Assembly (NCBI GenBank): GCA_026929865.2
Contig: CM049404.1
Location: forward strand, 1,428,501-1,492,500
Reading direction: 5' to 3'
DNA from: Hyperoplus lanceolatus
Lineage: Eukaryota; Chordata; Actinopteri; Uranoscopiformes; Ammodytidae
DNA: 64,000 bases
Shown: positions 35,919 through 37,887 of the stretch, one piece after another
Position numbering within the stretch: position 1 is the stretch's first letter
Layout of the letters: each line of letters opens with the position of its first letter
The notes under the pieces: generated by a model
The model's database searches: none
The model's input: the letters and a program-made list of their open reading frames with translations, nothing else
What the model was told of the DNA's origin: nothing
Made by a program: the position numbers and the translations under genes

Positions 35919-37887
35919 AGCCACTACGAGTAAGATGGCACGTTGGCGTCCCCTTTGGACAAAAGCGGTAGTATTTTTACGACGCCCGCTGTCGCAAAGC
36001 TGTTTACTAGCGTGTGACAGGCGTGCGAGTGTGAACTGAGAAGGGAGCAATATAGTGCATGTCCGTGTGTTGAAAGCGTGAGGACTCTTTTCGGCTCCGT
36101 GAGAGTGGTTTTGACACTGCATCAACTAATGCCAGTCACTGCCACACACACCTGATTGCAATGAGTAGATGCAGCAGTGTCACCTTACTACTCTCTCTCT
36201 CACGGAGCTGAAAGACGTGTCCTCACAGAAAGCGAATGAACGAGAGACGGCAGTTAGTATGGATCACAATGAGGTAATGTGTTTGTGTTGTTGATGTAAA
36301 TAATGACTATTTCAGATAATGGTTATCTGATGATGGTGAAGCAAAGTAAACTGCGTGTTAGTGCCAACCGCTCATTCATTTAGGAGTAAACACTGCAGTC
36401 TAGTTTCGCTCTCGTGAAATTGTATACACGTTGCTTGGCAACGCCCTCGTCCCCGCCGTAGCCTATATCACTCTCCCTTTTAGCGTTTCTTCATTGCATT
36501 TTAATTTTGTTCTTTGATGGTTCAGCCCCGTTATCAGTCATTATGACGACAAATAACTGTCTCAAACAAGGCTCCCGCTCCCCTTCCCTCACCTGGAGGG
36601 ATAGGCTTCTCAAATCACGTTGCTGCGCCACACTGAAATCTGCGACCAATATCGATATGTGACCATAGAGCTTGCACGAGCGAACCGAAAATCGGACTGG
36701 GTGTGCGACCAGACCAAAAGCAGTAATAAAAACTATTTAAAAACGTCTTTCTTTGCCCTGATGGTCTCGTTTGCTGTTAAAGGTAATTTATGATTATCAG
36801 AGGAAACATGATATCTTGGAAATTCAAAGATTTCATGAGAGAAGATCAATACCACTCTAAATATGAAGGAACATTCAGGAGCTAGTTATTCTAGTTTAGT
36901 ATAAAGATTAGACGCAGGGGGAAACAGCTGGCCTGGCTCTTTTGAAATCAGCACCTCCAGGAAAAGTTATGGCCCCCAGTCAAGAAATAGGACGTATCCT
37001 CCGGAAGAAAATGTCTAATTGTAATTTTTTTACATTGGGGTTTGTATATGCCATACATGTTTATACATCAAATGAGATTTAATGCATGAATTGGTCATCT
37101 TTAGAGGTGCAGATAGGTTGATTTTGCTACACAGCCAGTTTCTCTCACTTTATGTAATTAGGTTAGTCCTTTTTTGTTGTTATTCAAGAAATTGGCATTA
37201 CGTGAGGTTATCTTGTTGGAAATGGGGGAAACTGAAACAAATAAGGATATTTTCCAAAATGTCCAACTTGTATTCAGTTATTGTTGACCATTTCCTGACG
37301 TAATAACCTCTGTCCCCACAGAGCAGTGCTCGGGTCAACATCTCAGAGGGCTCCTGTCCGGAGAGGATCATCACCATCAACGGCTCAACAGACTGCGTCT
37401 TCAGAGCTTTCACCATGATCACGTTCAAACTGGAGGAGGTAACCGTCGCTGCTTGCCATGAAATACAAGTGAAATCAGCTCATGTCTTTACCTTCCATTA
37501 ACAAGCCATCTTAACAGTTATGCTGCTATAGAGACCAAGATACAGACTGATCCAAAATTTTGTCTTAATGTCTTATGGAGGAAATCAATCAGGGTGCAAT
37601 AAGAAAATTAATGCAAGGTGGAAAAAAAGTTTAAGAAGCCATTTCACCACATTATTAGAAGGAGTCATTTCCTGAGCTTCACCTCAACATTACCAGTAAT
37701 GTGCTTTTATCGCTATCGATTATGCTCTCGAATGAAGTGACGGTAGGAAAAAAAATCTTTGATGGGTTTCATAGCACTTGATGTGCTTTTACATAATACT
37801 ACACTGCCAAGGAAAGTTAGGGATAAGTGGTTTTTAGCTGTTGCTGGAGGCTGTTTAAAAGATATTTAAATGTTACTCGTAGCCGCT
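35919..37887 (+). mobile_element. TTAA-flanked transposon carrying a PCBP exon
   Basis: A 1969-bp insertion in the Tc1 transposase gene. TTAA is present at both edges (35915-35918, 37888-37891) but once in the uninterrupted Tc1 coding sequence. Ends are inverted: AGCCACTACGAGTAAGAT (left) and AGCGGCTACGAGTAACAT read inward from the right (15 of 18 identical). TTAA targets indicate piggyBac- or Kolobok-type transposition. A subterminal inverted repeat lies at about 36080-36225 (GTGAGGAC...GTCCTCAC, around CTCCGTGAGAG). No transposase ORF is present; instead it carries a spliced-gene segment with one PCBP exon. Confidence 0.82.
37322..37438 (+). CDS. pcbp4: Poly(rC)-binding-protein KH1 exon inside a transposon
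   Basis: A 117-nt segment, 39 codons with no stop, preceded by a pyrimidine tract and AG (ACCTCTGTCCCCACAG) and followed by a GT donor (GAGGAG|GTAACC). It encodes [20 protein letters not shown] followed by [19 protein letters not shown]. This is the second half of the first KH (RNA-binding) domain of PCBP/hnRNP E proteins; the GxxG loop would be in the preceding exon. From memory of the family, exon length, phase 0 and both boundaries match the PCBP genes. SEGSC, GST and FKLEE are closer to PCBP4 than to PCBP1-3. No other PCBP exon was recognised in the window. It lies between the inverted ends of the TTAA element, so I read it as a captured exon rather than part of an expressed gene here. 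The paralogue is less certain than the family. Confidence 0.8.

Follow-up and report, generated by a model that had tools for sequence, protein, structure and literature searches.

The locus described here raises the question of how a complete exon of a PCBP gene came to lie inside the remains of a Tc1 transposase gene. The window, meaning the whole stretch of 64,000 nucleotides that was analysed (C10:1428501-1492500), contains at 35919-37887 a 1,969-bp insertion that lies between two TTAA sites and splits a decayed Tc1 gene. A first-pass annotation had proposed that a TTAA-flanked non-autonomous element had captured a piece of a host pcbp gene here, as a Pack-type element, and this proposal was upheld by sister copies that are free of the captured block and by a source gene that has the same exon and intron sequence. 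The element is a recent single-copy Pack-TIR carrying a whole pcbp exon, and such elements are a known way of duplicating gene pieces. That it originated from an empty member of its family and a piece of pcbp via template switching is, taken as a whole, an explanation that we regard as highly probable.

The insertion site in the Tc1 gene

TTAA had been reported at both edges of the insertion and is present there, at 35915-35918 on the left and at 37888-37891 on the right, in each case just outside the interval first annotated. Inverted ends of about 18 bp had likewise been claimed; the terminal repeats measure 15 bp with 2 mismatches (AGCcaCTACGAGTAA / AGCggCTACGAGTAA), or 19 bp if the TTAA is included, and occupy 35919-35933 on the plus strand (AGCCACTACGAGTAA) and 37873-37887 on the minus strand. 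All 15 bases of the left repeat are identical in 18 of the 19 sister copies that were fetched, with one change in the remaining copy, and the right repeat is also aligned in the sister copies. A scan of the window for the end motif, with two free positions and up to 3 mismatches allowed, returned just the two element ends, both with 0 mismatches, where 0.18 matches were expected; at least two matches were obtained in 2 of 100 shuffles. Among the TTAA pairs in the window that are 150-8,000 bases apart, the element pair is one of four with at most 3 mismatches over 16 bases, so the terminal repeats by themselves are suggestive only. The observation nevertheless stands far above chance, because the element belongs to a family and the block inserted in it has a source gene that is 99% identical.

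The Tc1 gene is represented by a 5' portion at 35100-35918 and a 3' portion at 37892-38060, both on the plus strand and both with approximate extents read from the sequence, and the limits of the Tc1 copy are probably at about 34663 and 38241, where a 32-bp inverted pair lies. When the insert and one TTAA were removed in silico, the Tc1 reading frame was rejoined (..ARQPSHL-TELDRFS..), and the rejoined peptide aligned with the Sleeping Beauty transposase without a gap across the junction (E 7.7e-11), exactly as anticipated for an insertion that splits a Tc1 transposase gene and can be removed to leave one TTAA. The same peptide scored 24.8 bits against Pfam DDE_3, under the curated cut-off of 28.6, and no Pfam family was matched by the upstream piece of the frame at 35505-35780. 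The Tc1 frame is interrupted by stops and is dead. The Tc1 match was absent from all 43 fetched loci that were searched (of 45).

The transposon family and the captured pcbp block

A search of the genome (807 Mb, 527 contigs) with the whole element gave 3,540 first-look candidates, and 40 places were scored. One is the window element at full length, and the other 39 are copies of its 5' part with 97-99% identity, matched over positions 1-893 in 38 cases and over 1-888 in one. In 38 of these 39 copies the 3' end (positions 1929-1969, or 1929-1965 in two cases) directly adjoins the 5' part, which gives the ordinary element a length of 932 bp. In the window, the 5' part of this MITE-like element (consensus 1-893) occupies 35919-36811 and the 3' part (consensus 892-932) occupies 37847-37887, both on the plus strand, and the first two bases of the latter, GA, are also the last two of the former. 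The extra block of 1,035 bp between them (36812-37846, plus strand) is found, among the scored places, in the window copy only: the 38 sister copies matched in both of the element parts do not contain it and are empty family members, and the remaining place was matched over 1-888 only. The further copies for which the first-pass annotation had suggested a search, looking for TTAA flanks, were thus recovered in the form of 39 other scored family members.

Nineteen of these copies were fetched and aligned; they are the best matches to the window and hence biased toward similar copies. TTAA stands on both sides in 18 of the 19, and each copy departs from the consensus at 1 to 11 of 930-932 positions. 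For the window copy the figure is 12 of 932, and 8 of these changes are unique among the 20 rows, a number within the range of 1-10 unique changes per sister copy. The family is young and non-autonomous, having no transposase of its own. A TIR-pattern search of a viral contig collection and of a genome contig collection returned 0 matches in each, and a protein search with the reading frame from the element's 5' end returned no candidate. At one other locus (L010:558-2432), two family members almost abut, with a gap of about 16 bp between them. Within the window element, 36078-36226 is an imperfect palindrome, and the DNA of 36070-36235 folds better than 200 of 200 shuffles (z -4.5).

The captured block comes from a multi-exon pcbp gene at C10:16240589-16242648, on the minus strand of the same contig and 14.8 Mb away, and consists of one whole exon together with parts of both adjoining introns. 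Alignment of the interior with the species' own pcbp locus, introns included, had been proposed as a check by the first-pass annotation, and it gave 752/756 and 281/285 identical bases, the differences being 6 substitutions and, in runs of A, two gaps of 1 bp. A search of the genome with the block, in which very common words are skipped, gave 23 candidates, all of them scored. These are the block itself, one full-length source that was matched as two pieces, and 20 weaker matches of short length; 15 of the 20 fall in a dispersed repeat close to the block start and 5 in the exon region (73-76%). No second copy of the block was found among the 23 scored candidates. Part of this dispersed repeat lies in the captured intron at 36858-36948 and recurs in 15 other places at 69-87% identity. 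In the 30 kb round the donor, PCBP exon sequences follow one another in order on the strand of the gene: the KH1 start EVGSIIGK, GETVKRIREE, the captured exon, DLTALVANG..KEIRE, STGAQIQVAG.., SPPKGATIPYRPS.. and a third KH domain, with AG/GT borders seen at the captured exon and at the next exon downstream.

For three of the six substitutions the direction of change can be told, and in each case the captured copy has the derived base. At block position 63 the window base is missing from 4 of 4 informative repeat copies, one of which has the base of the parent, and at block position 84 the parent base is present in 11 of 11 informative repeat copies; 12 of the 15 repeat loci were used for these two positions, and the third polarised change is in the exon, as described below. 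The parent intron carries a 1,019-bp insertion (C10:16240874-16241892; L041:5875-6893), with ends GGGTGTATTCACAC and a TTA duplication, which we take to be Harbinger-like and which the captured copy lacks; it either came later than the capture or was missing from the allele that was copied. Copy and parent have diverged by 0.6%, and from the substitution rates of fish an age of the capture well under a few million years is inferred. The parent gene also harbours a 774-bp TTAA-flanked MITE of the same family (C10:16243813-16244586; L041:8814-9587), which is oppositely oriented and lies upstream of the copied block at a distance of about 1.16 kb, and a shorter, more diverged family match (82% over 132 bp) lies further upstream in the parent region.

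At the left breakpoint the parent reads ..CCGAGA|TATCTTGG and the element ..ACATGA, with GA in common, and at the right breakpoint the parent reads TTGCTG|GTTTT and the element GAGGCTG, with G in common. These microhomologies of 2 bp and 1 bp are too short to be significant alone and may be due to chance. Because the GA of the element is present on both sides of the block, zero element bases were lost. A CpG profile had suggested a border near 36715 and was roughly right only, the true border being at 36811/36812. The block was also considered as a separate element, and this was rejected: the GA on either side is sequence of the 932-bp element, the two ends of the block do not form an inverted repeat, and GA is missing from the parent at the right border. 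As the sequence of events, we suggest that a member of the young 932-bp TTAA family took up 1,035 bp of a pcbp (pcbp4-like) gene on the same contig, and that this uptake would have occurred by template switching during DNA repair or replication, 39 bp from the right end of the element. The product, with both transposon ends intact, would be a Pack-TIR element, in principle still open to mobilisation by a transposase of the family. Points that speak against this explanation are the shortness of the microhomologies, the 14.8 Mb to the parent, the size of the block and the position of the breakpoint near the element end.

The captured exon (37322-37438, plus strand) is a complete PCBP exon of 117 nt, or 39 codons, encoding the second half of the KH1 domain; it is open, is in phase 0-0, and is preceded by AG and followed by GT, all of which agrees with its first description. 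Its 39-residue peptide matched PCBP1/PCBP2 KH1 structures (4 PDB sequences, E 9.7e-13 to 3.4e-11) and scored 21.6 bits against Pfam KH_1, barely over the cut-off of 21.5. A profile search with the exon found 131 proteins, of which 120 were listed; in the 75 of these 120 rows in which the flanking residues were read, the residue before the match is mostly E or Q and the one after it V or D. Such uniform borders are as expected of a fixed exon, and the exon is a 39-codon KH1 exon with the borders of the PCBP family. Among the listed matches, the best ungapped identities are 36/39, to Lates, Gadus and one contig protein. The source gene appears to be pcbp4-like, since the exon is identical to bird PCBP4 at 31/39 residues as against 26/39 for PCBP2-type rows; public names of the fish proteins vary.

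The exon differs from that of the parent by a single base at 37380, C to A, which replaces Thr with Asn. Asn occurs at that column in 0 of the 120 listed relatives, so that the change arose in the captured copy. The splice sites are identical to those of the parent, as are 426 bases upstream and 13 bases downstream of the exon. Similarity to the contig protein (P0001) seemed to extend into the translated downstream intron, with a score of 49 that none of 19,944 random segments of the window attained; an unrelated place in the window at about 5254-5266 scores 47 against the same protein, so the intron similarity is weak by itself, and it became superfluous because the parent locus was found. 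Elsewhere in the element, ATGGATCACAATGAG followed by GT at 36259-36275 might, speculatively, be a small initial exon that is in phase with the captured one.

Order of capture and transposition

Template switching into an empty family member could have taken place before or after the element reached its present site, and these are two versions of the same explanation. In one version, the Tc1 gene first received an empty 932-bp element, into which gap repair afterwards copied the pcbp piece, and the exon never travelled inside the transposon. This is the model favoured for single-copy Pack-TIRs in the account of Tan et al. (PMC8277862), and the block here is single-copy; furthermore, the element part gave up no bases, and it is 12/932 off the consensus (8 unique) compared with at most 6/1,035 in the block, as if it were older. 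However, 12/932 and 6/1,033 do not differ significantly (Fisher p = 0.15), the sister copies themselves have 1-10 unique changes, some of the 12 may be inherited from the source copy, and the parent is far away, so that we lean towards capture in place by a little only. In the other version, which corresponds to the FoSTeST model as set out by Tan et al. (PMC8277862), the element acquired its exon in the neighbourhood of the pcbp gene and then jumped into Tc1. The youth of the family, with fetched copies at 1-11 differences from consensus, and the TTAA-flanked relative about 1.16 kb upstream of the copied block speak for this version, which we would put somewhat below an even chance. The intronic relative, however, is in the opposite orientation and 21/771 positions off the consensus; of the 12 differences of the window copy, 11 can be compared with it, and just one, a common polymorphism, recurs there. 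No second Pack copy was found among the scored candidates. That MITE was rejected as the direct source because of its orientation and because only one of the compared differences is in common, the private changes of the window copy being missing from it.

The remaining alternatives deny the capture altogether. If the exon belonged to a real pcbp gene at the window locus, with transposons merely around it, the intact exon and its parental splice sites would be readily understood. Yet the exon lies inside a TTAA-bounded insertion that splits Tc1, and the ordered pcbp exons sit at another locus. All 120 of 120 PCBP-related queries matched the captured exon when compared with the window by tblastn, and just two more places reached E <=0.1 (0.07 and 0.09), both weak and without a PCBP motif; of 3 KH-motif matches in the window, the one that is PCBP is the captured exon. 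Collinear PCBP exons around the site, which the first-pass annotation had named beforehand as one of two findings that would overturn its reading, were looked for in the window and not found. A resident gene was therefore rejected on account of the Tc1-splitting insertion, the lone PCBP exon and the gene elsewhere, and we consider it next to impossible. An assembly artefact, with pcbp reads misjoined into an ordinary element, is very improbable as well, as the copy has substitutions of its own, lacks the parent's 1,019-bp insertion and is joined at one base-exact place.

Capture of the pcbp piece by the element thus being preferred, its consequences can be considered. The first-pass annotation had envisaged that the element could spread the exon to other genes; the block is single-copy, with 23 of 23 candidates scored, and there is accordingly no sign of such spread. 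Most probably the block is a duplicate of recent origin that has as yet no function. Inclusion of the exon in a transcript is possible, because it has the parent's splice signals and is symmetrical. It is conceivable, if improbable, that the insertion is a still-mobile TTAA element and so a portable cassette exon, as its 117 nt in phase 0-0, its parental splice signals and its two intact ends might suggest. If that were true and a family transposase were active, the second half of KH1 could be dropped in frame into introns of other genes; alternatively, chimeric RNA could arise from the window locus. Every stage of the capture is available in one genome at base resolution, namely the empty element, the donor gene, the exon-bearing element and the insertion site. 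With so young a capture and its splice signals preserved, both the splicing of the captured exon and the order of capture and transposition are directly testable.

Comparison with known systems

The first-pass annotation had left the superfamily as piggyBac- or Kolobok-type, and of these the Kolobok part fits the element ends. AGC stands at both ends of the window copy, and one (L014) of the 19 fetched copies has lost this terminus on its right side. Kolobok elements are described as having a TTAA target and an AG (RR, purine-purine) terminus (PMC6004289), and the element has both. Five of the six piggyBac 5' motifs listed in PMC12732532 are CCC-type and the sixth is CACGTT; the window element, which has a TTAA target and short terminal repeats in common with piggyBac, has AGC ends instead, and piggyBac membership was rejected on account of these. 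Judged by its ends, the element would thus be Kolobok-like rather than piggyBac, owing to TTAA and the AG terminus, and its mobility too is suggested by those ends. With the Kolobok superfamily and T2-MITEs, as described in PMC6004289, it also has non-autonomous MITE-like copies in common, although its TIR beyond the AG is its own and it is known here from its ends.

Other transposon remains were noted in the window. A decayed piggyBac transposase lies at 51379-52060 in two minus-strand frames (Pfam DDE_Tnp_1_7), and a TTAA-flanked stretch with AG ends at 28991-29883 (TTAAAGAGGACCTAT.. / TTAAAGAGATCCTAT..) is a candidate Kolobok-like MITE. At 61997-62853, a reading frame (62219-62647) for a putative Tc1-type transposase is enclosed by long inverted repeats, which measure at least 40 bp and have 2 mismatches.

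Among animal DNA transposons with host coding sequence, Turmoil-1 of C. elegans provides an example of transduplication (PMC2572040); in that account the host sequences lie inside the inverted terminal repeats, unlike those of the window element. The closest comparison is with the Pack-TIRs reported by Tan et al. in 2021 (PMC8277862), who describe 370 of them in 55 of 100 animals, 8 being in zebrafish and only four being multicopy. Of 281 unique Pack-TIRs in their account, 59.8% are on the chromosome of the parent and 13.4% captured exonic sequence; microhomology of 1-36 bp (median 2) is present at one or both breakpoints in 67.6%. In their cases the parent lies within 15 kb in 56.9%, the median captured length is 224 bp, and breakpoints are skewed to the element interior. 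As the mechanism they favour template switching that fills gaps, for the most part in elements already at their new site. By their figures 87.2% of Pack-TIRs are hAT and TcMariner, and neither Kolobok nor piggyBac is mentioned in the main text. A narrow search of the literature found no TTAA-type Pack element in fish, and no priority is claimed. The window element differs from the Pack-TIRs so described in being of TTAA type with a complete TE part, in its block of 1,035 bp as against the median of 224 bp, in a parent 14.8 Mb off, and in a breakpoint near the end and not in the interior. In common with them, it is a TIR transposon with non-TE host DNA inside and an identifiable parent: it has the target-site TTAA and 15-bp TIRs, a host-derived block of 99% identity, empty family members, and the microhomology that is common, if not obligatory, in Pack-TIRs, with GA on the left and G on the right. 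It is also single-copy and has its parent on the same chromosome, and, like the human ERP44 Pack-TIR, which Tan et al. (PMC8277862) describe as a coding exon with parts of its introns, it carries an exon together with parts of the adjoining introns.
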